Positions 23,121 to 46,444 of a DNA stretch of 59,105 nt are shown here, piece by piece. The notes beneath the pieces were generated by a model. It ran no database searches. It was not told the origin of the DNA and saw nothing but the letters and a program-made list of their open reading frames with translations. Both the position numbers and the translations under genes were made by a program. This stretch comes from Bacteroidaceae bacterium (GTDB taxonomy: Bacteria > Bacteroidota > Bacteroidia > Bacteroidales > Bacteroidaceae): contig JAGCPB010000058.1 in NCBI GenBank assembly GCA_017642425.1, forward strand, positions 1-59,105. The letters run 5' to 3'. Every line of letters starts with the position of its first letter. Position 1 is the first letter of the stretch.

Positions 23121-23150
23121 GACTAAGAGTGTTTTACTATTGCGAATGGG

Positions 23151-23158
23151 CAAAGTTA
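23151..23158 (-). promoter_or_regulatory. -7 element for the DUF2007-proB-proA-argF' operon
   Basis: TAACTTTG on the minus strand matches TAnnTTTG and predicts a leader of about 25 bases before the start at 23120. No clear -33 element is seen. Confidence 0.65.
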
Positions 23159-23170
23159 GCAATTTTTCAA

Positions 23171-23178
23171 TACCTTTA
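23171..23178 (+). promoter_or_regulatory. -7 element directly before the first MORN gene
   Basis: TACCTTTA differs by one base from TAnnTTTG and ends 7 bases before the ATG at 23186, predicting a leader of 0-3 bases. It is back to back with the leftward promoter at 23151-23158. Confidence 0.45.
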
Positions 23179-23185
23179 CGCCGAT

Positions 23186-24325: not shown

Positions 24326-24357
24326 TTTGGATTTTTATCCATAATACACTATTTTTG
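24326..24357 (+). promoter_or_regulatory. Promoter predicting a leaderless mRNA for the second MORN gene
   Basis: TTTG at 24326-24329 and TATTTTTG at 24350-24357 are 20 bases apart, a near-ideal promoter. The -7 element ends only 5 bases before the ATG at 24363, so transcription should start at or next to the start codon. The -33 box begins immediately after the upstream gene's stop codon (TGA, 24323-24325). Confidence 0.75.
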
Positions 24358-24362
24358 CCTTA

Positions 24363-25445
24363 ATGAGATACAGCATTGTCATAATAATCATGTTCCTGAT
24401 ACCGGTATGCCGGGCTCATGCCGCCCATATCGGGAATGACAGCATCCCTGTAGATACCGTACTGCTGGATGACGGATCGTTATATATGGGACAGATCCGT
24501 GACTCGCTGTTCAACGGTCAAGGCACCTGCATCTATCCTGACGGTACCGTATATGACGGAGAGTGGAAAGATGGACTGTGGGACGGTAACGGCACACTTG
24601 TCTATCCCGACGGAGACATATACAAGGGTGCATTCCATGAACACCGTAAAGAGGGATTGGGGACATATATCTACAGCAGCGGGGCAAGATATGACGGAGA
24701 GTGGAAAGATGACCGTTTCAACGGTAAAGGCAAACTGCTGTATGAGGACGGAGGATTATATGACGGCAGTTGGAAGGATGAGATGAAACACGGATACGGA
24801 AAACTCATAACATCTGCCGGAAGGACCATCACTGGATATTTCTATAATGACGAGTATCTGGGTATGCCGTATGATACAACCATTGACCGCGACAGTACGC
24901 TTACCGATGAACTCAAGGAGTGGGGGTTCGAGAGCGAACCGGATTCCCTGCCGGCAGACCTTTCAGTCGGCCTTTCAATATCCATGAAAAAGATTGCAGC
25001 TCTATCCTTGTGGTTTGAATTATCGGAGCATTTCTTTTTGGGCTTTTCGGCCGGATTGAATATAGATCCGCCCACCCATGGAAAATACGGGGGTATGTAT
25101 TGGAACGATATCGCCCATGACGTCCATATGGAGGGAGAATACGTTTCTACCATATTAACGATTGAATCGGGTACAAAATGGAAAGAGTTGACATTAGGAG
25201 CAGGAATAGGCATAGGATTCAACAAGTCATATCAGAACTGCAGAGCCAACGATCCCACGATAAATTATGGTTCGACCATAAAGTACGAAGATTCATACTA
25301 CACTGATATTGCAACAGGCGGAGTATTTGTGTACCGGGTATACGCAAGGCGTTCCATATATATAAAAAACCAACCCAAGGTATTGTCTTACCTCGGGTAC
25401 GGTAATATAGAAGGACTGATTCTGGGGTTCGGTCTGCTCTTTTGA
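24363..25445 (+). CDS. Exported MORN-repeat protein with beta-barrel-like C-terminal half (paralogue)
   Basis: A 360-residue paralogue of the preceding gene. A signal peptide (about 1-20) is followed by MORN repeats at about 38-165 (Y-D-G-E-W-K-D-G-L-W-D-G-N-G, Y-D-G-E-W-K-D-D-R-F-N-G-K-G). The C-terminal half (about 195-360) carries matching landmarks with the first copy: the F-F-L-G-F-S-A-G-L-N strand, a Y-Q-N-C-R segment and a final G-L-I-L-G-F-G-L-L-F. The two arose by tandem duplication and then diverged. It has its own promoter and ends 5 bases from the converging ddh gene. Confidence 0.75.
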   Translation: MRYSIVIIIMFLIPVCRAHAAHIGNDSIPVDTVLLDDGSLYMGQIRDSLFNGQGTCIYPDGTVYDGEWKDGLWDGNGTLVYPDGDIYKGAFHEHRKEGLGTYIYSSGARYDGEWKDDRFNGKGKLLYEDGGLYDGSWKDEMKHGYGKLITSAGRTITGYFYNDEYLGMPYDTTIDRDSTLTDELKEWGFESEPDSLPADLSVGLSISMKKIAALSLWFELSEHFFLGFSAGLNIDPPTHGKYGGMYWNDIAHDVHMEGEYVSTILTIESGTKWKELTLGAGIGIGFNKSYQNCRANDPTINYGSTIKYEDSYYTDIATGGVFVYRVYARRSIYIKNQPKVLSYLGYGNIEGLILGFGLLF

Positions 25446-33000: not shown

Positions 33001-34338
33001 TCCATGTCACTGCCCGGATTCATGCCGGCATCCAAGATGCTGGGTCAGAACAACTCATCCGGAATCATGGCTCCCGGACTGGACTTTGCGTTAGGCCTTA
33101 CCGGCGATGACTATCTCTACAAGGCCATTGACAACGGCTGGCTTCTGAGCGGTGACAGCATTGCCCACACAGCCGCATCCACCACCACAGAGGACTTACA
33201 GGTCAAGATGACCCTTGAACCGTTTAGCGACATCAAGATAGATGCCAATGCCAGCTGGAACAAAGGCGGCTCAAACCGCATCCAATACATGTACGCCGGT
33301 ATGCCGAGCACACGTGGAGGCAGTTTCAACATGACGGTAATCACCATAGGCAGCGCATTTGAGAGACACTCATCAGACAACAACTACCGTTCACGCAGTT
33401 TTGACCGTTTCATATCCAGCCTGCCCACGTTCCGTGACCGCATTGAGGCCCAGTATGAAGGCGCCCGCTACCCGCAAGGCTCATCTCTGGCCGGACAGCC
33501 GTATAACAGCGCCAACGGCGGAGTTGACATGTATTCATCGGATGTGCTCATACCTGCATTCCTGGCCACCTATACCGGCCGTGACGCCCGCAAAGCTACG
33601 CTTGACCTGTTCCCGGGCATGCTAAGCATCCTGCCAAACTGGTCATTCACATACAGCGGTCTTAGCAAGCTGCCGTTCTTTAAGAAATACTTTAAGAGCT
33701 TTAATCTGACACATGCCTACAAGAGTGTCTATGCTGTGGGCAGCTTCAACACTTTCAACAGCTACATGGAGTACATGAACGGACGCGGATTCATTGAGGA
33801 CGTTACCAGCGGCAACCCCATACCCAGCACCATGTTCAACATAAGCTCGGTATCCATAAACGAATCATTCGCTCCGCTGTGCGGAGTCAACATGACTTTC
33901 CTGAATGACATATCGGCCCGTCTGGAGTTCCGCAAGACCCGTGTGCTCACCCTGAGCACCACAGCAGTTCAGGTAGTTGAGACCACGTCCGATGACATCA
34001 CAGCCGGAGCCAGCTACAAGATAAATGCCGTAAAACTGTTTGGAGCCAAGCCCGGCACCGGACGCAACAGCGTGAGCAATGACCTGAACCTGAGCGCTGA
34101 CTTCTCGCTGCGCAACCAGAACGCCCTGTGCCGCAACCTGCGTGAGGAGACCACCCAGGCCACCAGCGGCAACCGCGCCGTCAAGCTCTCGTTCAGCGCC
34201 GACTACACCTACAGCCGCATGCTCACCCTGAACTTCTACTACGATTTCCAGAGCAATTTCCCGCTGGTATCCACATCATCCTACCCCACCAGCACTCATG
34301 ATGCAGGCATGACGCTCAAGTTCACCTTGACAAGGTAA
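27100..34338 (+). CDS. sprA: T9SS outer-membrane translocon protein SprA
   Basis: The 2,412-residue protein is of the size of SprA (Sov in Porphyromonas), the giant barrel that is the outer-membrane pore of the type IX secretion system. A signal peptide ends near residue 28 (SCLYAQG). Family landmarks include the early F-D-L-G-P-A-E-K-I-F-G-P-G-G-V region (about 112), long beta-rich stretches with repeated aromatic residues, the W-E-like internal soluble regions and a C-terminus of barrel strands ending T-L-K-F-T-L-T-R. Its presence implies a working T9SS elsewhere in the genome; no other translocon gene is in the window. The last 17 bases overlap the end of the converging gene at 34322. Confidence 0.95.
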   Translation: MTKGRYLAAALLLIGSCLSGSLSCLYAQGTQRTLPYPENITREITYDEDDDTYSVGYKLGDYYLEVPDVMTPDEYNRMLMHQSMQSFYREKYAQEVQEQGDNRFDFTNMKFDLGPAEKIFGPGGVQVRTSGSAAIKFGYNRNKVDNPSLSVQNRTTGGFDFDEQINLNINAKVGDKINMNLNYNTEATFDIDAKMIKLRYEGKEDEIIRLLEAGNISFPTNSSLIQGATSLFGIRTDLQFGKLKLQMVLSQKESSSSSVNSQGGQQITDFEIDASSYDENRHFFLAHFFRDSYDDNMAMLPSIVSGVQITRIEVWVTNKRSNYDNPRNIIAFTDLGETGHISNDTWNVLAGPVPSNGANDLYNRITTDYPDARDIEQVATTLGAFLDGSTDYEKISNARKLGTSDYTLNSELGYISLKNALSSDEVLAVAFEYTYGGQSYQVGEFSSDKTDAGQALFVKLLKSNSNSPGSGTWDLMMKNIYSITQGNIQNAQFKLGIYYDSDSTGSRLTYLPEAGLKGTPLLRMLNLDRLDDKNNPHPNGKFDFIDRYTVQASSGRIIFPVVEPFGSHLRKMIGDDAIADKYVFQELYDSTKVVAKRIADKDKFMLMGQYSGSGSNVIQLGSYNIPRGSVIVTAGGSTLVENSDYTVDYSMGTVTIINQSIIDAGTNVSVQLESNTEYSMQRKTMAGVNWMYDLNPNLQLGGTFMHLNEKPLTSKVTMGDEPLVNTMYGLNINWKRESQALTNIIDKIPFVTATKPSSINFKAEMAALQSSVSDKVQGQASYIDDFEAAESGISISQPSAWTLSAVPKGMKGYGKSGQVESGYNRALLNWFYIDPLFTRRNSPLTPSHIKTDLDQLSNHYVREVYERELYPNKESTSSESSTLQVLNLAYYPRERGPYNLNPDLDADGHLGNPQDNWGGIMRRLTTTDFEAANIEYIEFWMLDPFIYNPTAAGGDLYLNLGEVSEDVLLDGKKFFENGLPVNGDSAKWTETVWGKVPTAKSLVYAFDNTAADSRDRQDVGLNGLTTEEERTWPAYANYLNEIRGKVKPEVFQSFYDDPAADTYHYYRGSDYDDARMSVLDRYRKYNGTEGNSPNSAESGSRYDQSARTTPDVEDANGDYTMDEYEKFFQYRVSLRPADLEIGRNYISDKREVKVKLRNGNTETVNWYCFRIPINEYEKVEGGIRDFSSIRFMRMYLTGFSDEVHVRFGSLELMTSQWRNYEQPIFSVTNRTPTISGKFSATSVNIEENGDRLPVNYVVPPGVTRILDPNQVQLVQDNEQAMSLKVTGLGAGEARGIYKKSSLDLRKYKRIQMFTHAEAVVPDDGTLRDGDISVFIRLGSDYSGNYYEYEIPLDLTPAGHYSGSNDNDRRMVWPERNMLDIDFDVLTQVKNNRNVQKNLGAISASSVYSEYDPANPENRISVVGNPSIGNVRAIMIGIRNNSMSAKNAEVWVNELRLVGYESKGGMAAHSTLGLRLSDLASVDLSGQMSTAGYGGLEQSIKDRKTDDYYKYSVTTSTNVGRFLPEKSQISVPVYYSYTKEKTSPKYSPYDTDLILDDVIESYPQGHMRDSIQSITQDIKESHNFSISNAKVNISSDTPMPYDPSNFSFSYSESVSDRSNSTIDYEHDQNWKASVDYSYSPGTKGWAPFSEIGYDAKWFSIVKETRISFLPQNFAFNTGLQRSYHELQERDLEGTEGIPVIFSQQFYWNRDLTVRWDPLQLLKLSLSARTRAEIEEPYTVVNKDLYPDQYQLWKDSVKMSLMNMGRPLDYSQSFNASYSIPFNKIPVTDWITADAGFNSSYSWNRGTTYANGASYGNIISNRRSISLNGRFNLLNMYNKVNYLHLLNNRYSSTGKSSSTYSTNRNKRFQQEVTLLPGKRNVIVHELGTLTPKMTATTKDGKTVKLRYRKLSADSISIKVKDTLDLAIRIIQDPDMPVRKNKFNLREGMDVGLRMLMMVRNLSVSYRNDYSMSLPGFMPASKMLGQNNSSGIMAPGLDFALGLTGDDYLYKAIDNGWLLSGDSIAHTAASTTTEDLQVKMTLEPFSDIKIDANASWNKGGSNRIQYMYAGMPSTRGGSFNMTVITIGSAFERHSSDNNYRSRSFDRFISSLPTFRDRIEAQYEGARYPQGSSLAGQPYNSANGGVDMYSSDVLIPAFLATYTGRDARKATLDLFPGMLSILPNWSFTYSGLSKLPFFKKYFKSFNLTHAYKSVYAVGSFNTFNSYMEYMNGRGFIEDVTSGNPIPSTMFNISSVSINESFAPLCGVNMTFLNDISARLEFRKTRVLTLSTTAVQVVETTSDDITAGASYKINAVKLFGAKPGTGRNSVSNDLNLSADFSLRNQNALCRNLREETTQATSGNRAVKLSFSADYTYSRMLTLNFYYDFQSNFPLVSTSSYPTSTHDAGMTLKFTLTR

Positions 34339-35260: not shown

Positions 35261-35644
35261 TCATTCTACCAAAAGTGTAGATCCAATCTCCACCTTGAAC
35301 TCGTCGTTAAAGATAGTATTATTTTGATGATTGATAATTACATCCGTATTGTTTTTTATTGTAGCATTGTGAACATCAACAAAATCTTTTGTATAAGTTG
35401 AATCATTTACTATATCACCTTCCAGAAAGATTGTCCTTCCTACATTGTTGTTTGGAATGATATGTAATGATGGGTCGCCAAATAAAATCCAGGAATTAAA
35501 TGTTTCCTGTGCATACTGAGATGATGCTCCAGACAAGTAATAATCCATCATATCACACGATGAACTATAGCATAGCATACCTATTGTTAAATAGTCTTCA
35601 TTTATTAGTTGCTCATTAAAACTCATCTGTGCATACAATGGCTC
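35261..35644 (-). pseudogene. 3' remnant of a gingipain-like (C25) peptidase gene
   Basis: The frame encodes the end of a C25 cysteine peptidase: E-P-L-Y-A-Q-M-S-F-N-E, then Y-Y-L-S-G-A-S-S-Q-Y and E-T-F-N-S-W-I-L-F-G-D-P-S-L-H, which parallels the D-T-W-T-V-F-G-D-P-S-L end of the gingipain catalytic domain. A C-terminal beta domain follows (N-A-T-I-K-N-N-T, F-K-V-E-I-G-S-T-L-L-V-E). The catalytic His/Cys part is missing altogether and the preceding sequence belongs to a different gene in another frame. The remnant has no own start. It is embedded in a leftward operon, so it may still be transcribed. Confidence 0.7.
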
Positions 35645-36069
35645 GTGCCACCTTTGCAAAAGTGAATATCCATAGTGGAATTTCCAGCCACTGCATAGAT
35701 GCCATATGAACGACCATTGCTGCATTCTGTAAGTGAGTTTTTGTAAACATGAGTATAAAAGCCATATGCCTTCTTTGAATCATTTAACCCATTTCTGACA
35801 CTACTTCGGATGCCCATATTATAATCACCAGATGCCCCTTGCGTTTCTAATTTTGTCAATCTCATGCCGGCATTCTGACTCTCATCATCTGATAATATAT
35901 ACGTAGTTATCTCAGAGTCTCCCGGACTATTAACCGTAAAATTGCTGACAATAGTTGATACATCATCGTACTTGACACCGACATTACCATTGCTTTCAAC
36001 CAGCAACTGGCAAAATGCAGGGTTTGAGATCAATAAACTAGTCAGACAAATAACAATAAGCCTTTTCAT
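35623..36069 (-). pseudogene. 5' remnant of an S74/tail-fibre-type exported protein gene
   Basis: The frame starts with a signal peptide (MKRLIVICLTSLLISNPAFC) and L-L-V-E-S-N-G-N-V-G-V, the usual opening of Bacteroidetes tail-fibre/S74 proteins. It continues to S-Y-G-I-Y-A-V-A-G, which parallels N-Y-G-V-Y-S-V-A-G in the intact protein at 37159-38460. After that the reading passes into C25 peptidase sequence in the wrong frame and stops after 148 residues. The S74 domain and sorting tail are gone. A short secreted product could still be made. Confidence 0.65.
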
Positions 36070-36097: not shown

Positions 36098-37006
36098 TTA
36101 AAAACTATAGTATTTCTTTCCGTTGCGAATGTAAATACCATTGGCGGGTGGTGAATTCAGTTTATGGCCTTTCAGGTCATAGATGCGGTCATCATATTTG
36201 ATAAGGAAGATGCTCTCTGTATTGGTGGTACTTCCTGCCGATGAGCCCCTGGCAAGGGCGTATCTCATAAACTTTGATTGTGACTCTACTGTCTGGACCT
36301 TGTTGTTGAGATAGATGCTGTACTCCTGTGCATTACAGTTCTCAATTTCAAGTTTGAAGGGCTGGGGATAGAACATCATGGTGGAGTCCTCATAGTTTAT
36401 CTCAAACCACATTAACAAGCACTGGTCTGTAACTATATAGTTGAGATAATTGGGCTGGGCTCCGCTACCGTAGAATGCCCCCTGGGCGGTGAACTTGCCA
36501 TCATCAGTTAGGGTAAACCGGACATCGGTCCATTCAATCTCATTGGTTGGGTTGAGTTGTTTGCGGTCCTTACGGATGCTGCCTTCATCAATAACTGTTA
36601 CATTACAATACTTCATTGAGGAGCCGCCAATGGTTTCAACCCCTACAACATCGTTTCCGCTTCTCAAGGCTGTTACCATTCCGTTTTCATCAATTATTGT
36701 AACTGGGTTATTGGCGAGTCCCCATGATTCAAACCAATTTACTTTGGCATCATTGGGTGTAACGTGCAGTTGGCGGCTTTCGCCAATCTTTAGGATAATA
36801 TTCTGTTCAACCAGTTTGAATTCACCAGCCACCTGTGCGGTATCAGTCTGGTCATCACCATAGTTATAATCCGGATCTTGGGGATTGATGTCCGGAACCA
36901 CCTGCGTGGTGTCACTTACCACCTGTGTGGTGTCTGCAGGTTCAGTTCCATAGGCGGTAAGGCCCATAGTAGCAAGCATTAACGTTAGTGTGGCAAACTT
37001 TTTCAT
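36098..37006 (-). CDS. Exported Big2-type Ig-like protein with short C-terminal sorting-like tail
   Basis: A 302-residue protein with signal peptide (1-20), a low-complexity linker with tandem D-T-T-Q-V-V repeats, and a Big2-like domain at about 66-145 (I-I-L-K-I-G-E-S-R-Q-L, I-D-E-N-G-M-V-T-A-L-R-S-G). A beta-rich middle follows, and the end I-Y-D-L-K-G-H-K-L...G-I-Y-I-R-N-G-K-K is the compact C-terminal motif seen on many Prevotella-like exported proteins. It is the first gene behind promoter and array A. The function is unknown; Big2 domains usually serve adhesion or spacing at the surface. Confidence 0.7.
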   Translation of the reverse strand: MKKFATLTLMLATMGLTAYGTEPADTTQVVSDTTQVVPDINPQDPDYNYGDDQTDTAQVAGEFKLVEQNIILKIGESRQLHVTPNDAKVNWFESWGLANNPVTIIDENGMVTALRSGNDVVGVETIGGSSMKYCNVTVIDEGSIRKDRKQLNPTNEIEWTDVRFTLTDDGKFTAQGAFYGSGAQPNYLNYIVTDQCLLMWFEINYEDSTMMFYPQPFKLEIENCNAQEYSIYLNNKVQTVESQSKFMRYALARGSSAGSTTNTESIFLIKYDDRIYDLKGHKLNSPPANGIYIRNGKKYYSF

Positions 37007-37070: not shown

Positions 37071-37105
37071 CAAATATAAACAGCATTAATAATCGTGGGC
37101 AAAAA
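37071..37105 (-). promoter_or_regulatory. Promoter of the 37006-34322 operon
   Basis: On the minus strand TATATTTG (37078-37071) is a perfect -7 element and TTTG about 21 bases upstream (near 37100-37103) is the -33 element. The leader is about 60 bases. Array A abuts the -33 element. Confidence 0.75.
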
Positions 37106-37140
37106 AATGTCGTGACAATTGTGGGACATTTTAGGGACGG
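37106..37140 (-). promoter_or_regulatory. Array A: three 11-bp direct repeats (GTCMC type)
   Basis: On the minus strand GTCCC, GTCCC and GTCAC begin at 37138, 37127 and 37116, exactly 11 bases apart, separated by A/T-rich linkers. The last unit begins 38 bases before the first T of the -7 element. The layout matches arrays B and C. Confidence 0.8.
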
Positions 37141-37158
37141 ATCTTTCACAATGCCATC

Positions 37159-38460
37159 TTATTCCTTTATACGAATCATCCGTTTTGTATCCACAAGCAC
37201 TCCGTCAGTGACCAGAGAATACATGTAGATACCGGGTTCAAGTCCATTGCCATCTACCGGAATTCTGACATCCCCTCTATCCGATATGGTCCGGCATTGG
37301 ATCTGACGTCCATTGTAGTCGTATATGCAGAATAAGGCATCATTGACATTTTGCGGTATGAAACATCTGACAACACATCTTTCACTGAAAGGATTGGGTT
37401 CGTTCTGATATAGTTCAGTTGTCTGGTATGGAGAGCGGCCAGCAATCTTTGTGGTTGATTTCAATGCCTCCAGTTCGGAATAGGCCTTGTCTAATTCTGT
37501 CTTGAGTTCCTGAATGGAGCGTATCAGCAGCGGTATCATCTCAACATAGTTGACAGAAAGGTATCCATCCTGGTTCTCCGATACCAGGTTGGGATATATT
37601 TCCTTGATTTCCTGTCCCGACAGTCCGAAATGCTCTTTCTCAAGAATGCCGGAATCATCATTGTAGTATCCTAAAGGTGTTGAATCCTCTGCACTATTCA
37701 CGTCAAACTGCTTCAGACTGTATCTGAAGACGTTCACTTGCATAAGATTATCCAAACTTCCGCTCTCAAGCTGTGCCATATCATGGTTAAGTCTGGAATC
37801 TGCCAATGTGTTGTATGCCGATGCATAAATTGCATCAGTTGTTTTAATGTCACCATGGAAAAGACCTGCATATCGGCCACTTGTATTGAATCCTTCATCA
37901 TAACTTGATGAACCGTATATTCCGGTTCCACCGTTCGGTCCGGAAAGAACTCCGCTCACACCAAAATTTAAGCCTGGGCTTGCATAACCTGCAACAGAAT
38001 ATACTCCATAATTACGTTCGCTGTCGGGATTGTCAACGATTGCTGACAGATATTTCTGGACAGACTGTCTTGGGGTTGACGGTATGTACTCAAAATAGCC
38101 TACCCACCAGGTTCCGTAAGCATTTATGGAAAGATTGTATGGTTTATAATATGAAAGAGACGATATACAAACGGTAACGCCGGTAGTTTCAATTTTGCAA
38201 TTCTCGCTTATAACCACCAAATCAGTAGAATCACTGGTAATGATTACACTTGTTGCTGTTTTGGCCGGAAACTGTATATACAAGGTATCCTCCTCAAAAT
38301 AAGCTAATGGAGAGTGTGAACTTGTCCTTTCGCCAACCCTTGCACTCCCGTTGCCATTGGTTCCCGTCGGGACACTCTTAACCAACGGGATATATACTTT
38401 TGCACTCATGGCTGTGACCATGAAAAACGCTATGGACAAAAACAATGCTCTCTTGCTCAT
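37159..38460 (-). CDS. Exported DUF3244-like / S74 chaperone-domain / T9SS type A tail protein
   Basis: A 433-residue protein in four parts: signal peptide (1-20), a DUF3244-like beta domain (about 50-125), a tail-fibre-like stretch followed by an S74 endosialidase-chaperone domain (about 215-320, H-F-G-L-S-G-Q-E-I-K-E-I-Y-P-N-L-V), a coiled coil (about 308-336) and a T9SS type A sorting domain (350-433, N-E-P-N-P-F-S, Y-D-Y-N-G-R-Q, L-E-P-G-I-Y-M-Y). The S-D-x-R-x-K motif that holds the self-cleaving Ser and Lys in phage proteins reads A220-D-S-R-L-N225, so self-cleavage should be lost. It is co-transcribed behind the TPR regulator (18-base gap). Confidence 0.82.
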   Translation of the reverse strand: MSKRALFLSIAFFMVTAMSAKVYIPLVKSVPTGTNGNGSARVGERTSSHSPLAYFEEDTLYIQFPAKTATSVIITSDSTDLVVISENCKIETTGVTVCISSLSYYKPYNLSINAYGTWWVGYFEYIPSTPRQSVQKYLSAIVDNPDSERNYGVYSVAGYASPGLNFGVSGVLSGPNGGTGIYGSSSYDEGFNTSGRYAGLFHGDIKTTDAIYASAYNTLADSRLNHDMAQLESGSLDNLMQVNVFRYSLKQFDVNSAEDSTPLGYYNDDSGILEKEHFGLSGQEIKEIYPNLVSENQDGYLSVNYVEMIPLLIRSIQELKTELDKAYSELEALKSTTKIAGRSPYQTTELYQNEPNPFSERCVVRCFIPQNVNDALFCIYDYNGRQIQCRTISDRGDVRIPVDGNGLEPGIYMYSLVTDGVLVDTKRMIRIKE

Positions 38461-38478
38461 ATTGCTGACTATAAACAG

Positions 38479-40089
38479 TTACTTGGATATAAATAATTCA
38501 ATAAAGTCCTTTCCGGATTTTTCAATAAGACGCAATTTGCGTTTGCGGACACCACTCTCAGACAGATTTATAAATGCGGATATGAACCTGTTGTTGAAGT
38601 TCAGGCTTGACAGTATGCAAATCACTATGTCCTCACGCACCAGATTCTCAATCTCTATGTTCATGTCCAGAATGGTGTCTATGAATGATTCCGATATCTG
38701 GTTGATTATAGCGGTGCGTTCATCGGCAGAGAATGAAAGGTCATTGTTCAATAGCTTTGATGAGAGGCAGGAGTGGGCATCGGTATTGCGGAATAACTCC
38801 TTGCATACCTCCAGTTTCTCCTTGTACATCTTAAGGATAGACTCTCTTGAAAGGTTTCTGTCATTGAACGGGGCGTCTAGCATGTGGGCTTTCATAATCT
38901 CTATGCTGTTACTGCGGGCCTGGTCACGCTGGCGTATCTGCATGCGGGCTATACGGTTGCTGCGGTTTGAGAGATAGAGCAGATAAACCATAATGAGGAT
39001 TGCCAGAAGCGAGGTGTTGATTATGATAAGTCTTCTGTTTCTGTATCGTGTCTCGCTGTCTTTCAACATTATTACATGATTGCGTATCACATCCTCTATG
39101 GCAATGTCCTTGCGCATATCATATATAGAGTCAATAAGCTGGTCATGCAGCTGCATGTATCCAAGGGCATCATCCGGATAGCCTTTCATTACGGAGAGTA
39201 CCGCCAGTTTGCCGCTGTTGTCACATACGGTGTAGAGTTCTTCCGGGCATTCCATGGATTTTCCGTAATAGAGATAAGCCGAATCAAACTGCTCTGAATC
39301 AAAGAATATGTCGGCCTTTACGCTATAGCCGATTCCAATCTCCGACGGGTCCTTTAGTTCATAGAGATACCTTTCTATGTAGTACATGGCTTTTGAATAG
39401 TCCTTGTAGCCATGAAGATATATCTTTGCCAGGTTCATGTAACACTGGCGGCTACGCAGGCTTGAAGCATGAGGATCTTTGAGCAACACGTTAAATAGTG
39501 AATCTGCAACCGGATAGTCTGCCTGGTAAAGTGCGTTCAGAGATATGAGATACCTGGCGTTTGATGTAAGAACATTATCGTGAAGCCGCAGGGAGTTCTT
39601 AAGGCAAGCGTTAAGGTTACTTAGAGACAGGTCAAACATCATCTGGTTAAGGTAATGCTGTCCCAGGTTCTGCTCTGTTAGAGCATAGTATCTTACCAAT
39701 GTGTCGGGAAACAGATCCTTAGCCTTTATGTAGGCGCTTACTGCCGAATGGTCATTACCCATATCTGTATATACACAGCCAAGTGAGTACCAGGCCATTG
39801 CCGCATGATAGTCTTTCTTTCCGGCACCGTAATAGGCTGTAGCGGTAAGTATAAGGCTGTCATCCTGAGCTGTTACATAATTCTTGAAATCTGCCTGTGT
39901 CTTAAGAATTGCGTAATATGCCCTGTCTCGCATATTGTCCGGTAAACTGATTGTGGCAAGCATGGAATCGGCAGCTGCCGCATCAGTTTCAAGCAGTTGC
40001 TCCACATACTGTAAATCACGGTATGTGCCCTTATCCCGGCAGGATACGGCAAGCACAAAAATAAGCAGTATCCAAGAAACTTTTCTCAT
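38479..40089 (-). CDS. TPR / transmembrane / HTH regulator
   Basis: A 536-residue protein with N-terminal signal or lipobox (VLAVSC, Cys 17), TPR-like helical pairs over about 25-340, one membrane helix (353-373) and a cytoplasmic C-terminal part whose last 45 residues (V-R-E-D-I-V-I-C-I-L-S-S-L-N-F ... S-E-S-G-V-R-K-R-K-L-R-L-I-E-K-S) look like a LuxR-type helix-turn-helix. The frame is open to 40185, but a promoter at 40117-40124 lies inside it, so I use the MRKVSW start at 40089. Such membrane proteins are typical Bacteroidetes regulators. Its own promoter carries array B and it heads the unit with the S74 protein. Confidence 0.75.
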   Translation of the reverse strand: MRKVSWILLIFVLAVSCRDKGTYRDLQYVEQLLETDAAAADSMLATISLPDNMRDRAYYAILKTQADFKNYVTAQDDSLILTATAYYGAGKKDYHAAMAWYSLGCVYTDMGNDHSAVSAYIKAKDLFPDTLVRYYALTEQNLGQHYLNQMMFDLSLSNLNACLKNSLRLHDNVLTSNARYLISLNALYQADYPVADSLFNVLLKDPHASSLRSRQCYMNLAKIYLHGYKDYSKAMYYIERYLYELKDPSEIGIGYSVKADIFFDSEQFDSAYLYYGKSMECPEELYTVCDNSGKLAVLSVMKGYPDDALGYMQLHDQLIDSIYDMRKDIAIEDVIRNHVIMLKDSETRYRNRRLIIINTSLLAILIMVYLLYLSNRSNRIARMQIRQRDQARSNSIEIMKAHMLDAPFNDRNLSRESILKMYKEKLEVCKELFRNTDAHSCLSSKLLNNDLSFSADERTAIINQISESFIDTILDMNIEIENLVREDIVICILSSLNFNNRFISAFINLSESGVRKRKLRLIEKSGKDFIELFISK

Positions 40090-40116
40090 AAATCTGTATG
40101 GCCAGTTTTTATACAT

Positions 40117-40124
40117 CAAATATA
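40117..40124 (-). promoter_or_regulatory. -7 element for the TPR regulator-S74 unit
   Basis: TATATTTG on the minus strand matches TAnnTTTG; the leader would be about 23 bases. The -33 region is only T-rich, which fits dependence on the adjoining array. Confidence 0.65.
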
Positions 40125-40150
40125 GAAAAGGCTTTTGCGTATTTGGAAAA

Positions 40151-40185
40151 AGCGAGAGGACAATAATGGGACAAAAACGGGACAA
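40151..40185 (-). promoter_or_regulatory. Array B: three 11-bp direct repeats (GTCCC type)
   Basis: On the minus strand GTCCC, GTCCC and GTCCT begin at 40183, 40172 and 40161, exactly 11 bases apart, each preceded by TT and followed by T/A-rich linkers. The last unit begins 37 bases before the -7 element, as in array A. Confidence 0.8.
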
Positions 40186-40224
40186 ATCTTTCCCGCAAAA
40201 GCCAACTTATTGTCAATAAGATTT

Positions 40225-42543
40225 TTATAGATTGCCGTAGGCGGGATAGGTGCAGTCATTGGTCAGGGTGAACTGAGCCTGACAGCGTATTTCTTGTGCC
40301 GATGCGGCAAAGTCTGCCTTGTAGTCACCATGCAGTGTCTGCCAGTTTGCTGAGGCCGGGTTGAAACCTGCCAGGTCATATTCTGACAGTTTGAATTCCA
40401 GTGTCTGGCTCTGACCAGGCTCAAGTAGGGCGGTCTTTCCGTATGCCTTTAGTTCCTTGACCAGTTGGGTGAATCCGCCATATGGAGCCTCAATATAAAT
40501 CTGTACAGCTTCCTTTCCTGCCACAGAGCCGGTATTGGTAACTTTAACAGAGAGGTTAACCACTCCGTCCACAACCTTGGCCTGGGGCTCACTGTATGAG
40601 AATGTGGTGTAGCTAAGTCCGAATCCGAACGGATATGACACCTGTTCAGGATGGCGGTCATAATAGCGGTAACCTATATCCACACGTTCATTATACTCAG
40701 TGAAATCATAGTTGGCCACGGGGGTTGCATCAGGGTTGCCACGGTTTGCGCGTGCCTGGGCCTGGAGCTCACGTGCGTTTACAGGATAGTTTGCGGTTGA
40801 CGGCATATCCATATAGTCAACAACATATGTGTCAACAAGTTTGCCCGATGGATTTACCGCCCCCTTAAGCACATCGGTTACGGCATAACCTGCCTCTTGA
40901 CCGGGCAGTCCTGCCAGCAGAATGGCATCGGGCCGTGACTTCCAGCTGGCGGTCTCTATGGGCGCGCCTATGTTAAGTATCACAACCACCTTCTTGTTTT
41001 TGGAGTGGAATGCATCACATACATCCTTTATCAGTCCTTGCTCGATATCAGTAAGCAGGTAGTCACCTTCATATCCGCGGTCAGCAGATTCACCGCAACT
41101 GCGGCCTATGGTTATTATGGCTATGTCACTTTGAATGGCATCGGCCCGGTACTGGAAAGGTTGACGCACAAGTGACTGCGGTATTACATGGTTGGTCAGA
41201 TTAGTGCGCATAAAGTCATTTGCACTGACCCGCCTGTTGTTCTCCTCAACATATTTGCTGTAGGCCGATGATACAGAAGGCTCCAGTCTGTAACCGGCAG
41301 CTTTGAGACCTTGGTCCAAACCTACGGCATGCTTGTAATTCACGCTACCGCTTCCTGTGCCCACAACGTACATGTCATATGAGCTGACTCCGTACAAGGC
41401 TATTATTTTGCAGTTTTTGCTTAATGGCAAAGCTCCGTTATTCTTAAGCAGCACCATACCTTCTGTGGCGCTGGAGCGTGACACCTGTGCATGAGCCGCC
41501 AGATCCGGATCATTCTGGAATTCATAGCCCTGCATCTTGGGCGAGCGCTCTACAAAGGCAAGAATCTTTTCAACATTGCGGTCTACTGTTTTTTCATCAA
41601 GCGTACCGTTCCGTACGGCATCTATGATAGCCTTAATCTGGTTGGCACTGCCGGGCATGAGCAGGTCATTGCCGGCCTTTACGGTAGCTACGGCATCACG
41701 TCCGCCGCCCCAGTCAGTCATTACCACACCTTCAAATCCCCATTCCTTACGCAGAATACTGTCAATCAGGGTGGCGTTCTCTGGAGCGTATGTGCCGTTC
41801 ACCTTATTATATGATGTCATGACGGCCCAGGGTTGTGATTCACGGACGGCAATCTCAAAACCTTTCAGGTAGAGTTCACGTGCTGTCTGCTGGTCCACCC
41901 GAACATCATTGGCCATACGGTTTGTCTCCTGATTGTTCAGGGCATAATGCTTTATTGTGGCACCCACTCCGTTTGACTGCACTCCACGTACCATTGCGGC
42001 TGCTGTCTTACCCGATATGACAGGGTCTTCTGAATAGTACTCGAATGAGCGTCCCAGCAAGGGATTACGGTGCAGGTTAAGCGCAGGAGCAAGCAGACAG
42101 TCTGCTCCATAACGTTTTACCTCATCACCTATGGCTGCACCTACCTCCTCAACAAGCTGCTGGTTCCAGCTCTGGGCAAGTATTGTGGCTACAGGGAATG
42201 ATGTACAGTAATAGGTCTTTTCATCACCCTGTCTGGTAGGGTTTATTCTCAATCCGCCGGGGCCGTCGGGCAGCATCACAGATGGAATGCCCAGACGCGG
42301 TATGGGATAGGTCTGTCCGGCGCATCCGGGAATAAGGTTTTTGGTGTCCTTAATCTCCCGGGCAATGTCATCACCGTTCCAGGCAGCCACACCCACAAGC
42401 AGGTTTACTTTCTCCTCAAGGGTCATGGCATCTACCACTTTCCTGACAGGAGATTTGCCAAACTCAACCGTGCGGTTGCATGAAAGCAACATAATAACCG
42501 GCAGTATAAGGCATACAGCCGGGACAAACGCTCTCTTTATCAT
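40225..42543 (-). CDS. Glycoside hydrolase family 3 beta-glycosidase, lipoprotein
   Basis: A 772-residue GH3 enzyme with a lipobox (LLSCN, Cys 22). The N-terminal barrel contains K-H-Y-A-L-N-N-Q-E and the nucleophile region G-V-V-M-T-D-W-G-G with D277. The alpha/beta sandwich follows, and the C-terminal Fn3-like domain (V-S-V-K-V-T-N-T-G, about 675-760) completes the usual three-domain form. Beta-glucosidase or beta-xylosidase activity is likely; the sugar cannot be fixed. It sits 14 bases behind cca and shares its transcript, with no SusC/SusD genes beside it. Confidence 0.92.
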   Translation of the reverse strand: MIKRAFVPAVCLILPVIMLLSCNRTVEFGKSPVRKVVDAMTLEEKVNLLVGVAAWNGDDIAREIKDTKNLIPGCAGQTYPIPRLGIPSVMLPDGPGGLRINPTRQGDEKTYYCTSFPVATILAQSWNQQLVEEVGAAIGDEVKRYGADCLLAPALNLHRNPLLGRSFEYYSEDPVISGKTAAAMVRGVQSNGVGATIKHYALNNQETNRMANDVRVDQQTARELYLKGFEIAVRESQPWAVMTSYNKVNGTYAPENATLIDSILRKEWGFEGVVMTDWGGGRDAVATVKAGNDLLMPGSANQIKAIIDAVRNGTLDEKTVDRNVEKILAFVERSPKMQGYEFQNDPDLAAHAQVSRSSATEGMVLLKNNGALPLSKNCKIIALYGVSSYDMYVVGTGSGSVNYKHAVGLDQGLKAAGYRLEPSVSSAYSKYVEENNRRVSANDFMRTNLTNHVIPQSLVRQPFQYRADAIQSDIAIITIGRSCGESADRGYEGDYLLTDIEQGLIKDVCDAFHSKNKKVVVILNIGAPIETASWKSRPDAILLAGLPGQEAGYAVTDVLKGAVNPSGKLVDTYVVDYMDMPSTANYPVNARELQAQARANRGNPDATPVANYDFTEYNERVDIGYRYYDRHPEQVSYPFGFGLSYTTFSYSEPQAKVVDGVVNLSVKVTNTGSVAGKEAVQIYIEAPYGGFTQLVKELKAYGKTALLEPGQSQTLEFKLSEYDLAGFNPASANWQTLHGDYKADFAASAQEIRCQAQFTLTNDCTYPAYGNL

Positions 42544-42557
42544 ATTAAGGTCTGTAT

Positions 42558-44000
42558 TTAAGGTTCTTGTCGTACAGGTTCAAGGCCACGCTTGTGCGCC
42601 TCATTTAGCAGGAAGGCGTATGCGGCGTCATGCTCATTGGGGATAACCCCGTCCAGTATTGCATCCTTTATGGCTGCCTTAAGTTCACCCACAATAGCGG
42701 TAGGCTCCAGCCCGAACACGCGCATTATCTCCACACCATCTACAGGCGGCTGGAAATTGCGTATGCGGTCACGCTCCTCAAGATCCACCATCTTGCGGCG
42801 CACCAGCTTGAAGTTCTCCAGATGGCGATGTTTTTTCTGCTCGTTCTTGGATGTGATATCGGCCTCACACAGGGTCATCAGGTCATCTATGTCATCACCG
42901 GCATCAAACAGCAGTCGGCGCACTGCGGAATCTGTAACCTCATCATCTACAATTGCTATGGGGCGCATGTGCAGTTCAACCATCTTCTGCACATATTTCA
43001 TCTTCTCATTCTTGGGCAGTTTCATGCGCTCAAAGATGGCGGGAATCATCTTCATGCCCACATAGTTGTGGTTATAGAATGTCCAGCCGTGAGCGGGCTC
43101 CCATTTCTTTGTTCGTGGCTTGCCTATGTCATGCAGCAAGGCGGCCCAGCGCAGCCACAGGTCATTGCTGTTACGGGCCACGTTATCCAGTACCTCAAGC
43201 GTATGCAGGAACACGTCCTTATGACCGCGTCCGTTCACGGTCTCTACGCCTTGCAGTGCAGCCAGTTCCGGGAATATCAGTTCCAGCAGGCCGCAACGGT
43301 CCAGGTCTATGAATCCCTTGGACGGTATGGGAGCAAGAATAATCTTGTTGAGTTCCTCTGCTATGCGTTCCTTTGATATTATACCTATACGTTCGCGGTT
43401 TTTCTCAAGAGATGCAAAGGTCTCATCATCAATATAGAAGTTGAGCTGCGTGGCAAACCTTATGCATCGCATCATACGCAGCGGATCATCACTGAATGTA
43501 ATATCGGGATCAAGCGGAGTACGTATTATACGGTCCTGCAGGTCATCAATGCCTCCAAACGGATCAACAAGTTCACCGAACCGGTTCCCGTTAAGGCAGA
43601 TAGCCATTGCGTTTATGGTAAAGTCGCGGCGGTTCTGGTCATCCTCAAGTGTGCCGTCCTCAACAATGGGATTGCGTGACTCACGGTGGTAAGACTCCTT
43701 GCGGGCACCTACAAACTCAACCTCCAGGTCACCCTTCTTGACCTGAGCGGTACCAAAGTTCTTGAACAGGCTCACATGTGCACCGCGGCCCAATGCCTTG
43801 CCGTAAGCCTTAGCCATCTCCAGTCCGCTGCCCACTACGACTACATCAATATCCTTGCTGGGACGCTCCAGGAAAAGGTCGCGCACATATCCGCCTACCA
43901 CATAACACTCCAATCCCAGACTGTCGGCAGTCTGTGACAGCAGCCTGAACTCCTTGCGGTCAAGCAGCCGGGCCAGTTCCTCGTCACTGTATAACTTCAT
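42558..44000 (-). CDS. cca: CCA tRNA nucleotidyltransferase with HD domain
   Basis: Adds or repairs the CCA end of tRNAs, needed here because the encoded tRNA-Met lacks CCA. The 480-residue protein has the nucleotidyltransferase head (V-V-G-G-Y-V-R-D-L-F near 36, metal motif D-I-D-V near 53, R-R-D-F-T-I-N-A-M near 128) and an HD phosphohydrolase-type domain (L-L-H-D-I-G-K-P). The frame also has an ATG at 44009, but this lies in the promoter's -7 element (44007-44014), so the start at 44000 is used; that leaves almost no leader. Confidence 0.93.
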   Translation of the reverse strand: MKLYSDEELARLLDRKEFRLLSQTADSLGLECYVVGGYVRDLFLERPSKDIDVVVVGSGLEMAKAYGKALGRGAHVSLFKNFGTAQVKKGDLEVEFVGARKESYHRESRNPIVEDGTLEDDQNRRDFTINAMAICLNGNRFGELVDPFGGIDDLQDRIIRTPLDPDITFSDDPLRMMRCIRFATQLNFYIDDETFASLEKNRERIGIISKERIAEELNKIILAPIPSKGFIDLDRCGLLELIFPELAALQGVETVNGRGHKDVFLHTLEVLDNVARNSNDLWLRWAALLHDIGKPRTKKWEPAHGWTFYNHNYVGMKMIPAIFERMKLPKNEKMKYVQKMVELHMRPIAIVDDEVTDSAVRRLLFDAGDDIDDLMTLCEADITSKNEQKKHRHLENFKLVRRKMVDLEERDRIRNFQPPVDGVEIMRVFGLEPTAIVGELKAAIKDAILDGVIPNEHDAAYAFLLNEAHKRGLEPVRQEP

Positions 44001-44006
44001 ATGATG

Positions 44007-44014
44007 CAAAGATA
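44007..44014 (-). promoter_or_regulatory. -7 element for cca-GH3, nearly leaderless
   Basis: TATCTTTG on the minus strand ends 6 bases before the ATG at 44000, predicting a start of transcription at or within about two bases of the start codon. The -33 region is T-rich only. Confidence 0.6.
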
Positions 44015-44102
44015 GTGCAAGCCGAGAGGAGAAAAAAGGAGTTTACTCATTTTTTATCCCGAGGCGCAGCCTATCTTCAGACGTAGTTAAAAGATAGTGC
44101 AA
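44008..44102. repeat. Direct repeat of 13 bp spanning the cca promoter
   Basis: AAAGATAGTGCAA occurs at 44008-44020 and again at 44090-44102. The first copy contains the -7 element of cca; the second gives TATCTTTT on the minus strand, a weaker -7 element. The 44001-44326 gap has no gene: it holds this repeat, array C and the promoter of the gene at 44327. Confidence 0.6.
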
Positions 44103-44172
44103 ACATTTCAATTATGCCATTGACTATTATAATAACCACCCAATTGTGTCACAAAACACACATAGGAAAAGT

Positions 44173-44207
44173 TTGTCCCGAAATTGTCACATAATTGTCC
44201 CACAAAA
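44173..44207 (+). promoter_or_regulatory. Array C: three 11-bp direct repeats (TTGTCMC type)
   Basis: GTCCC, GTCAC and GTCCC begin at 44175, 44186 and 44197, exactly 11 bases apart, as TTGTCCC-GAAA-TTGTCAC-ATAA-TTGTCCC. The 7+4 base layout is that of a PhoB-type box with three units. The last unit begins 49 bases before the proposed -7 element, about one helical turn further than in arrays A and B. Confidence 0.8.
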
Positions 44208-44245: not shown

Positions 44246-44253
44246 TATCTTTA
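44246..44253 (+). promoter_or_regulatory. Proposed -7 element for the gene at 44327
   Basis: TATCTTTA is one base from TAnnTTTG and predicts a leader of about 70 bases. A second candidate, CACTTTTG at 44285-44292, is also one mismatch away. Confidence 0.4.
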
Positions 44254-44326: not shown

Positions 44327-46444
44327 ATGAAACAAATTCTATTGACTCTGAAAGTTGCAATGACCACAGCATTGCTTGCATTGCCCTTGTCGGCAATTGG
44401 AAACACCGTTAAGGTTTTTGATATAAATATAGAGAATGTATATAATATGTACATTGATGCATCTGCTTCTATCAATGGCGAATTGACATTCTGTTTCCAG
44501 ACATCAGATAAACTAATCAAGACAAATCTGCAAGGAGAAGTTATTGAACAAACAAACAACCCATACCGCTATTTTACGGTTCTTAATGGGGATACGCTTA
44601 TACTGAAAGGTCATGCGGTCATAGACATAAACGGTGACACCATTGTTGACTATTATGGCATAAGGGGTTCATATCAGTTCATTGCAGCATCTTCATCGGG
44701 CATATTTGTTTTTCAGAATGTGAACGTGAATGGAGCAACCAGTTCTGTCCAGAATTTTTTGAGTCGTAATAGTGTTTTTGTTGCCTCTAATCTAAAGGGA
44801 TTATGCTGCAGTGGAAGTGTAGTATATGGTATTCAGCCGCAATCTGTGGAAACATACCCAAGTTTGTTGACTTGGAGGAATGCAGATGATTTGAACTCCA
44901 GTTGTTATCAGAAGCCTCTTCAAATAAAAGACCCAAGGGGAATAGCTGAATCTGGAAACTATCTTTATATTTATTCCAATGCAGACAAAGCTCTGTATAA
45001 GATGGAAGCACCTTTACCACAGCAACAGACAGTTACTGAGAATAGTACCGATTCTCTTAAGATTGGTACGGATACCATATATTACTATGAGCCTAACGGT
45101 AACTTCTCAAATCTTATAGGTGCCGGAATATCACCGGATAACATTGATACAGTTGTCCTTTACTCATTGACTACAGATTTATATATACAAAAGACTGATG
45201 ACGCCAGTAAAAGGGACATAGAAACGCTTGTGAAACAATATTTGCCCGATGCCCGCTTTAAATGGGATTCCGGACAATATGACTATCGTTGCTCTGTAAC
45301 CACAAACAGTCTGGGACTGGATGAGGCAGTCAAGGCTCTGCTTTCCGATGATGCGATTGTGAGCGTAAGCAAAAGATATATCAGAAAAGACGTGAAAGAC
45401 CTTATAGACCTGTATCCGTTTGCAGATGAGGTTAAAGTATCTACATTCTCGGACCAACTACAGGTTATCTATCTTGATGAAAGTACATGGGACGAAGCAA
45501 ACAATCTTATTGAATCTATGGGGCTGAGTTTTGTGTTTGTTGACGATAGCCGCACAGATGTTTACAAAAGCGCAATGCTGAAAGCTCCAAAATCAATGAA
45601 TGTAGTATCTGCTGCCAACCAGTTATATGAATCCGGTTATTTCCTTTGTGCAAGACCAACTGCATTGCACGGAACAAAGAAATATCAGGTTCAAACTATA
45701 GACCACTCCGGCATACCATTCTATTATGGTGAGCAAGACGGGTCTAAGCAATATCTGTATATGGCTCCCGGCAGATTTGCCGTAAGAAAAAGCAGTGGAA
45801 CAGATAGAGCACAAATGGCATCCATTATAAAATCATTTTGTGGAAACTATAGCCGCATAACATGGCTGGACGAGGATTACTGCATGGTCTATACTTATCC
45901 CGATGTGGCAGAGACAGCAATGGAGGCTTTGAAAACGCTTGATAATGTAAAATGGGTAAGCAAACAGTATCTGGATAATATGTTTTATGTCCATTGCCTT
46001 AAGTATGCTGAAAAAATGACATACTGGGGTCTGGATGGAAGGTTGACACTAGTTTTCAAGGACAATGTTACCGATGCAGTCAGGAACAGAATCATTAATG
46101 AAAACAATCTGAGTCTGGTTTCTACTAAGACCGAAAATGATATTGTCAAGTTGGTATATGAACTGCCCAAGACAAAAGATGTTGTATCTGTATGTAACAG
46201 CATATATGAGACTGGCTATGTGAAGTATGCTGTGCCTAATATAATCAAGGAGAGAGAAGCTGGATTGCATTATGGAGGGTCTACTGATACAAGAGTCAGG
46301 GACATTAATCCTGGCGTCAATACAATAAGCATACAATACTATGACCTGCTTGGCCGCCGTCTGGAAACTCCTTCCGGTCTGACCATAGTAGTAACCCGTT
46401 ACAAAGACGGAACCATCCGCACAGAAAAGAAGCTCTTAAGATAA
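44327..46444 (+). CDS. Exported protein with two subtilase-prodomain-like units, no protease, and a T9SS-like tail
   Basis: A 705-residue protein with signal peptide (1-25). Residues 27-232 are paralogous to the protein at 34322-35239. Two units follow (about 249-445 and 464-640), each opening with an I-Y-Y-Y or F-Y-Y-G motif and closing with N-Q-L-Y-E-S-G-Y or N-S-I-Y-E-T-G-Y plus A-x-P. This is the pattern of the N-terminal prodomain of Bacteroidetes S8 subtilases (N-L-F-Y-E-T-G-L-F...A-E-P). No D-H-S catalytic domain exists; the protein passes straight to a sorting tail (660-705, Y-Y-D-L-L-G-R-R). Prodomains of this kind chaperone and inhibit proteases, so an inhibitor role is possible. 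Confidence 0.7.
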   Translation: MKQILLTLKVAMTTALLALPLSAIGNTVKVFDINIENVYNMYIDASASINGELTFCFQTSDKLIKTNLQGEVIEQTNNPYRYFTVLNGDTLILKGHAVIDINGDTIVDYYGIRGSYQFIAASSSGIFVFQNVNVNGATSSVQNFLSRNSVFVASNLKGLCCSGSVVYGIQPQSVETYPSLLTWRNADDLNSSCYQKPLQIKDPRGIAESGNYLYIYSNADKALYKMEAPLPQQQTVTENSTDSLKIGTDTIYYYEPNGNFSNLIGAGISPDNIDTVVLYSLTTDLYIQKTDDASKRDIETLVKQYLPDARFKWDSGQYDYRCSVTTNSLGLDEAVKALLSDDAIVSVSKRYIRKDVKDLIDLYPFADEVKVSTFSDQLQVIYLDESTWDEANNLIESMGLSFVFVDDSRTDVYKSAMLKAPKSMNVVSAANQLYESGYFLCARPTALHGTKKYQVQTIDHSGIPFYYGEQDGSKQYLYMAPGRFAVRKSSGTDRAQMASIIKSFCGNYSRITWLDEDYCMVYTYPDVAETAMEALKTLDNVKWVSKQYLDNMFYVHCLKYAEKMTYWGLDGRLTLVFKDNVTDAVRNRIINENNLSLVSTKTENDIVKLVYELPKTKDVVSVCNSIYETGYVKYAVPNIIKEREAGLHYGGSTDTRVRDINPGVNTISIQYYDLLGRRLETPSGLTIVVTRYKDGTIRTEKKLLR
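46337..46435 (+). repeat. Sorting-tail cassette, copy 2
   Basis: About 91 percent identical to the reverse complement of 34340-34438. The two copies lie 12 kb apart in inverted orientation. Confidence 0.85.

Follow-up and report, generated by a model that had tools for sequence, protein, structure and literature searches.

The window analysed here, a 59,105-nucleotide stretch of a Bacteroidaceae bacterium (contig JAGCPB010000058.1, assembly GCA_017642425.1), carries three arrays of short direct repeats, termed A, B and C, upstream of a gene for a tetratricopeptide repeat (TPR) protein and of neighbouring genes for secreted-type proteins. The TPR protein (38479-40089) has a helix-turn-helix (HTH) at its C-terminal end. 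The proposal made here, with a probability of about 0.78, is that arrays A to C are its operators: it would be a membrane-anchored one-component regulator, and a member of a Bacteroidaceae family in which some proteins have a repeat unit of their own, set by the HTH, before an adjacent operon for secreted proteins. The evidence consists of the arrays and their geometry, the co-occurrence of arrays with a class of HTH, the co-variation of unit and HTH, and the architecture of the protein, all read from the sequence. It supports the view that A to C are promoter elements of near-fixed geometry, common to the regulator gene and the neighbouring secreted-type genes, and with it the idea of a regulon that unites these genes under common arrays.

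Each array is made up of three 7-base units at an exact pitch of 11 bp (Table 1), and a direct reading confirms what the first-pass annotation had said on this point. How often would such triples arise by chance? Compared with (TTGTCMC)x3 at this pitch, the window holds 1, 1, 0 and 1 triples at 0, 1, 2 and 3 mismatches, against means of 0, 0, 0 and 0.0067 in 300 simulated first-order Markov windows. Triples with up to three mismatches are absent from the window at periods 7-10 and 12-24, and the earlier statement that it contains no other such array holds for all periods from 7 to 24. The source assembly, 87% complete with 2.62 Mb on 114 contigs, contains no triples with at most two mismatches to the TGTCMC cores other than A, B and C, and a reversed-pattern control finds 0. 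A -7 element follows each array, TAnnTTTG being the Bacteroides -7 element according to the available excerpts of PMC7366714. The spacing in promoter C is one helical turn longer than in A and B, as had been pointed out, but the distances to the -7 element, formerly given as 38, 37 and 49, are on counting those of Table 1. Array B is preceded by a degraded inverted half-unit, which forms a perfect palindrome, GGGACAAATTTGTCCC, in relatives G007 and G026 and is present, full or degraded, at five of six orthologue loci (the exception being the L193 arrays as read). As a general feature it was rejected: it belongs to the orthologue group and is not evident in the listed paralogue arrays.

Conservation in orthologous promoters had been suggested as a check, and it is found. 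The relatives compared are uncultured Bacteroidaceae and Bacteroidales assemblies, several of them from rumen or other herbivore gut samples. A true orthologue of the TPR protein (more than 1000 bits, the next best match scoring 423) is present in 7 of 37 genus genomes, and in all seven a triple with at most one core mismatch lies 5' of its gene; the array is therefore kept in six relatives (G007, G026, G029, G033, G034 and G036), in G029 with a 105-aa gene between array and regulator. At least one further triple of the same quality occurs in the cluster in five of the seven (the window's genome, G000, and G007, G026, G029 and G033). Arrays also lie 5' of the gene resembling that for the 302-aa protein in G026, G029 and G007, and one identical to C precedes the orthologous 706-aa gene in G033. 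A distant array in G007 (locus L052, contig C47, 7711-7739), away from the cluster, has two core mismatches and TAnnTTTG at 39 bp; it precedes genes for two proteins, one of 146 aa with a tail and one of 2192 aa, and the regulon may thus reach beyond the cluster.

Across the 37 genomes, triples with at most two core mismatches number 65, in 29 genomes (reversed-pattern control, 12), and 16 genomes carry the exact pair TTGTCMC-N4-TTGTCMC, at 37 sites in all (control, 3). The genus loci gave 32 distinct pair rows. In 24 of them a -7 box, strict or relaxed, lies at 39-41 bp (50-52 bp where the pair is the first of a triple); an unrelated repeat (L039) accounts for two of the 24. The promoter-placed pairs precede TPR genes or mostly secreted-looking genes, as judged by eye, a result in support of the link between arrays and secreted-protein genes. 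Sites of the TTGTCCC pair are often found to either side of the regulator gene, one 5' of it and one 5' of the next gene.

Which protein would bind these repeats? The pair TTGTCCC-N4-TTGTCCC occurs in 15 of the 37 genomes: in all 14 with a best HTH match of [IV][RH]KRK versus 1 of 23 others (G016), an association with a Fisher p of 2.5e-9 when descent is ignored. The class is that of the best HTH match, which 27 genomes have and 10 lack; some lower-ranked matches were left unread, and seven of the HTHs read are not C-terminal. In 60 regions around further TPR matches, upstream TTGTCMC pairs with at most one mismatch are present in six, all with the HTH GNVT..AIRKRKYRF, and the remaining HTH classes have none; L103, which is also an AIRKRKYRF locus, is without such a pair.

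PhoB boxes consist of 7+4-bp units in tandem, placed directly 5' of the core promoter, and the present 7+4 direct repeats with their TTGTCAC-like unit resemble them. An OmpR/PhoB-type response regulator encoded elsewhere might accordingly bind the arrays as tandem dimers, with the TPR protein as merely one of its targets; the window's own genome has two matches to the OmpR-type domain PF00486, and in G015 two promoter-placed triples stand in stretches where no TPR gene was seen. This is judged very unlikely. PF00486 is found in 37 of 37 genus genomes, whether arrays are present or not, against 15 of 37 for the TTGTCCC pair, and its presence does not explain the distribution of the arrays. No OmpR-type domain was found among the 30 window open reading frames (ORFs) searched, a subset of those in the window. 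Both the arrays and the sequence of their unit go with the class of HTH in the adjacent TPR protein, and the units TTGGACA, TTGGGAC, TTGTGAC and TTGTGAG, which stand in the corresponding position next to other TPR proteins, would be unexplained by one conserved regulator. Of the regulon of secreted surface proteins under one response regulator that had first been envisaged, the regulon is thus supported and the single OmpR/PhoB-type regulator is not.

Beyond the genus the association recurs in part. In genus g30, TTGTCAC arrays lie alongside TPR regulators ending in IRKRKERI (L240, L241, L242 and L254) or LRKRKSRI (L243); those 5' of the regulator are 39-40 bp before the -7 box, and those 3' of it at L240-L242 are longer and lack that distance (34 bp to a relaxed box). 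TPR membrane proteins with an HTH of the kind discussed here occur in 46 of 71 family genomes at E<=1e-6. Among 52 loci found by protein, seven of which repeat contigs already described (six orthologue loci, and L232, which is the L243 contig), promoter-placed TTGTCMC pairs are present at 6 of 6 orthologues and 4 of 4 LRKRK members, a TTGGCCC/TTGTCCC pair is present at 3 of 4 VRKKRHR members, and the remaining 38 loci have no promoter-placed TTGTCMC pair. The TTGTCMC pair itself was found in at least 92 of 399 family genomes scanned, of which 16 regions and a set of short loci were read. Some of these family pairs lie beside integrase-like genes or in dispersed repeats, as might be expected if the repeats were incidental simple repeats or recombination sites. 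That they are not operators at all is most improbable, given the near-fixed distance to TAnnTTTG, the conservation at orthologous genes, the co-occurrence with an HTH class and the 300-window null.

Is the design tied to one unit sequence? A search that assumed none, for any 7-mer pair (at most one mismatch) near TAnnTTTG and 5' or 3' of a TPR gene, was run on 116 loci, reduced to 81 non-redundant ones, with L142 removed as a non-TPR protein. The map of pitch against distance peaks at a pitch of 11 and at 38-41 bp, where each cell has 17-22 loci and the mean cell 0.59. When an array is called at pitch 11 and 37-42 bp from TAnnTTTG, with 72 cells at other pitches as control, 26 of 81 loci have one (control mean 1.04, maximum 4). 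Without the 18 RKRK loci the figure is 11 of 63 (control mean 0.83, maximum 3) and the peak is unmoved, with 9, 8, 8 and 7 loci at 40, 39, 38 and 41 bp against a mean cell of 0.43; whole RKRK loci were removed, since removal by unit left shifted TTGTCMC registers. In held-out loci from other genera (40, minus L320, L321 and L324, which repeat discovery loci L215, L217 and L229), an 11-bp array is present at 6 of 37 (control mean 0.69, maximum 4), a support for the 11-bp design that is real but modest. The units beside other HTH classes include TTGGACA (SRKFKAR), TTGGGAC (SRNLK, VRTLK), TTGTGAC (IRTLKYR), TTGTAAC (RTLKYRL) and TTGTGAG (ESRKSR). They lie in the promoter 3' of the regulator gene, and several of the arrays skip one turn. 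A unit-blind scan for 11-bp triples 5' of TPR genes gave little beyond the TTGTCCC type; the other units emerged once pairs were anchored on the -7 box and the region 3' of the TPR gene was included.

Does the HTH set the unit? Where units were called (31 loci), unit distance shows a correlation of 0.57 with HTH distance and of 0.30 with sensor distance; in partial Mantel comparisons the values are 0.53 for unit and HTH given the sensor and -0.18 for unit and sensor given the HTH, with unit registers set by eye, six orthologues included, the weak loci L331 and L333 omitted and descent left uncorrected. The differences between HTH classes lie within the HTH itself. Three TPR regulators (L086, L087 and L090, at G013:C25, G004:C72 and G013:C50) have very similar N-termini and different C-terminal HTHs, which suggests domain swapping. 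Of the 37 genus genomes, 2 have TTGGACA pairs (4 sites; reversed-pattern control, 3) and 5 have TTGGGAC pairs (11 sites; control, 7); the promoter-placed ones, two of each, are just the four source cases, each directly 3' of its regulator, so these scans show no stray promoter but add no new case.

A wider reading, to which odds slightly better than even are given, is that Bacteroidales possess membrane TPR proteins which form a family of one-component activators and follow a DNA code that can be read. The recognition helix would set the last four bases of TTGnnnn, and two to three units on one helix face would stand about 40 bp before the -7 box. The code would run RKRK followed by L or Y to TTGTCCC, RKRK followed by S or E to TTGTCAC, SRKFKAR to TTGGACA, SRNLK or VRTLK to TTGGGAC, and IRTLKYR to TTGTGAC. 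Several such switches would work in parallel in a genome, each tuned to its own module of secreted DUF3244, S74 or tail proteins. The window's genome has two candidate switches with TTGTCCC units and one with TTGGGAC. The second TTGTCCC system (G000:C42:20322 and 22008; L110, L146 and L162) has an IRKRKYRF regulator and two-unit arrays 5' of the regulator and 5' of the next secreted-type gene, and cross-talk with the window's system is possible. The third regulator, with TTGGGAC units, is at G000:C53:149314 (L120 and L365).

A number of observations weigh against these proposals. The co-variation of unit and HTH is partly shared descent, and for TTGGACA and TTGGGAC the reversed controls are so near the counts that only placement is informative. 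Most non-RKRK regulators have no array by the calling rule (52 of 63 discovery and 31 of 37 held-out loci). Among the held-out loci, pitches of 21 bp (5 loci per cell at 38-40 bp) and 11 bp (5 at 39 bp) turn up equally often. Three of 18 non-redundant RKRK loci (L193, L093 and L094) lack an array inside the windows searched; L193 has its array on the far side of a small gene, and G003 and G014 have a promoter-placed pair 5-6 kb upstream. A further RKRK locus, L091, has a TTTTCCG pair instead. Triples with at most one core mismatch occur in six genomes without an orthologue (G003, G008, G015, G017, G018 and G035), only two of these triples, both in G015, having TAnnTTTG at 39 bp. These two (L040 on C54 and L051 on C35) are TGTCAC triples in stretches where no TPR gene was seen, and the single HTH read in G015 is IRQRKSR. 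The pair in G016 has neither a promoter nor a matching HTH. Of 16 family regions with TTGTCMC pairs outside the genus, five have an [IL]RKRK regulator, two another TPR-HTH gene and nine none that was seen. Finally, the assignment of the HTH to a type depends on weak profile matches.

What kind of protein is the candidate regulator? By Pfam at E<=1 it has TPR and Sel1-type repeats only, with neither a match to the OmpR winged helix PF00486 nor a receiver. One strong hydrophobic segment near residue 354 was measured on the G036 orthologue, which is 98% identical, and is followed by a putative cytosolic linker; among proteins of at least 440 aa, 78 of 78 and 40 of 40 have a hydrophobic segment in the position expected. 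Together with the signal, this segment suggests a membrane protein with a periplasmic sensor and a C-terminal cytosolic HTH. The HTH gives weak profile matches (EvgA, E=0.007; DesR, E=0.038). At E<=1, Sigma70_r4_2 is found in 5 of 39 members (best 2.4e-7) and GerE in 2 of 39, and the window regulator's own HTH matches neither. The HTH thus appears closest, weakly, to the NarL/LuxR or sigma region 4 types. Its likeness to sigma-70 region 4 (the same 5 of 39) also leaves room for an arrangement in which it contacts the core promoter or polymerase rather than the array, and in which another class-specific DNA-binding protein binds the units, the TPR protein being its membrane partner or anti-factor; the co-variation of unit and HTH could then arise by linkage. 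This arrangement is unlikely, since the class differences sit in the HTH itself and the clusters showed no recognisable gene for a second conserved regulator, although unmatched ORFs there were not searched. Recognised neighbours in these clusters are GH3, poly(A) polymerase, an SNF-type transporter, an M50 peptidase and SprA.

With the TPR protein as the regulator, a mechanism can be outlined, in which binding, activation, autoregulation and signal are all proposed from sequence features. The TPR domain would be periplasmic, joined by one inner-membrane crossing to a small cytoplasmic HTH. The HTH may occupy the phased TTGTCMC units, one per helical turn, just 5' of the core promoter, and recruit RNA polymerase, whereby its own gene would be switched on via array B and the two neighbouring secreted-type operons via arrays A and C. 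Activation seems more plausible than repression: some 50 bp separate the last unit from the start site, so that it leaves the -7 and -33 elements free, a position that suits an activator in contact with RNA polymerase. As to the signal sensed by the TPR domain, a guess is the secretion state or the partners of its own targets.

Table 1. Coordinates of the arrays, promoter elements and genes of the cluster in the window
Feature	Position	Strand	Description
Array A	37112..37140	-	CCGTCCC-N4-ATGTCCC-N4-TTGTCAC; 3 mismatches to (TTGTCMC)x3; putative second operator, 5' of next operon
Array B	40157..40185	-	TTGTCCC-gttt-TTGTCCC-atta-TTGTCCT; 1 mismatch; putative operator of the TPR regulator gene
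Array C	44173..44201	+	TTGTCCC/TTGTCAC/TTGTCCC; 0 mismatches; 5' of the 705-aa protein gene
-7 element, promoter A	37071..37078	-	TATATTTG; 40 bp from last-unit start to TA
-7 element, promoter B	40117..40124	-	TATATTTG; 39 bp from last-unit start to TA
-7 element, promoter C	44246..44253	+	imperfect TATCTTTA (one mismatch); 51 bp from last-unit start to TA
Degraded inverted half-unit	40186..40196	-	GCGGGAAAGAT, 5' of array B
Candidate regulator, 536 aa	38479..40089	-	lipobox-type signal (AVSC), TPR repeats, C-terminal HTH (SESGVRKRKLRL); own promoter with array B
C-terminal HTH of candidate regulator	38482..38700	-	candidate recognition helix VRKRKLR (helix assignment predicted)
433-aa secreted-type protein	37159..38460	-	Peptidase_S74 chaperone domain; sub-threshold DUF3244 and type IX secretion tail; just 3' of regulator
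302-aa protein	36098..37006	-	signal-like N-terminus, '...YDLKGHKLNSPPANGIYIRNGKKYYSF' tail; first gene after array A
Genes of 148, 154 and 305 aa	34322..36069	-	3' of 302-aa gene; probably same operon
705-aa protein	44327..46444	+	signal-like N-terminus, '...YYDLLGRRLETPSGLTIVVTRYKDGTIRTEKKLLR' tail; putative target of array C

The claim that the three promoters drive all the proteins with a type IX secretion system tail was overstated, as only one of the seven cluster proteins compared with NCBIfam or Pfam, that of 433 aa, has such a tail, and at 19.0 bits it is below the NCBIfam cut-off of 23; the tails of the 302-, 305- and 705-aa proteins were judged by eye. The nearby type IX secretion gene SprA (27100-34338) is without an array. 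In the loci at large, the first genes after the downstream array look secreted for the most part, a hydrophobic N-terminus being encoded in 20 of 23 cases with a gene found, one gene being counted twice (L217 and L321 are the same). Several of these are proteins of about 120 aa, and of four compared with the DUF3244 cut-off two are clearly above it, one is just above and one is weak. Two short, overlapping ORFs at 35261-36069 (minus strand) are possibly remnants of longer secreted-protein genes, the first resembling the start of a 411-aa S74-type protein at L034. Two neighbouring MORN-repeat proteins with signal-like N-termini are encoded at 23129-25445 (plus strand).

Other repeats came to light alongside these arrays. 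Direct repeats at a 21-bp pitch, several of them TTGTCACG-like, lie about 40 bp before the -7 box at L084, L088, L327, L330, L331 and L333, and a TTGGGAC run at multiples of 11 bp (G018:C1:5690-5751; L366, L370 and L373) has no TAnnTTTG at the expected distance. The L040 triple of G015 has an NfeD/flotillin-like operon on one side and a Crp/Fnr-like gene on the other, as seen by eye. In other genera, TTGTCMC pairs occur 5' of genes that look like integrases (by eye) at L173, L178 and L187, short loci in which no TPR gene was recognised, and one genome of genus g16 (G051) has 55 dispersed TTGTCACACCGTTGTCAC-like pair sites. Triples of the TGTCCCTATTGGGTCAC type in G003, G004, G006 and G027 were dropped for want of a TAnnTTTG within 75 bp after the last unit, and similar ones in G028, found at gene ends only, were set aside. 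TTGTCAC pairs at G007:C87, G008:C103 and G029:C20 were dropped as well, having no strict -7 box or lying beside other kinds of genes.

How does the proposed system compare with known ones? With PhoB and OmpR it has in common tandem 7-bp units and 4-bp linkers next to the promoter, a pattern present in A, B and C; the regulator differs, with TPR repeats, a membrane segment and a weakly NarL- or sigma-4-like HTH in place of a receiver and winged helix, of which Pfam shows neither. SusR-like regulators, as described in the accessible part of PMC3878776, are likewise Bacteroidetes-specific membrane proteins with a periplasmic sensor, a C-terminal cytosolic HTH and direct repeats, and they too activate neighbouring surface-system genes, which resembles the role proposed here. 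According to the same partial text their predicted sites are 67 or 77 bp apart and their targets are glycan systems, whereas here the pitch is 11 bp with two to three units and the targets are of secreted type; distances of 67-77 bp were not scanned, and the comparison is with the published description, not by sequence. The hybrid two-component systems (HTCS) of Bacteroides, again as outlined in those portions of PMC3878776, are AraC-like regulators with kinase parts and sites at a mean pitch of 21 bp. They share a membrane-spanning one-protein regulator and direct repeats on one helix face; the pitch here is 11 bp, though one of 21 bp is seen beside some relatives, and by Pfam the candidate regulator does not have the histidine kinase, receiver and AraC HTH in one chain. 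PorXY-SigP of Porphyromonas, from the partial accounts at hand, also ties regulation to type IX secretion, through a two-component system and an extracytoplasmic function (ECF) sigma factor acting on the machinery genes, whereas here arrays precede putative secreted proteins. The available portions of PMC10316084 and PMC10434189 mention SusR and DUF3244 genes and no such TPR regulator. A published description of the TPR-HTH family or its operators was not recognised in the literature searched, most subscription journals being outside its scope.

Small secreted proteins without a known function sit beside these TPR-HTH genes in many Bacteroidaceae genomes. If the proposals are correct, the family would take its place as a signalling family next to the SusR, HTCS and ECF systems, and its parallel pairs of promoter and regulator could be of use in work with gut commensals. 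A rule leading from HTH to operator, if true, would allow regulators to be assigned to their targets from sequence alone.

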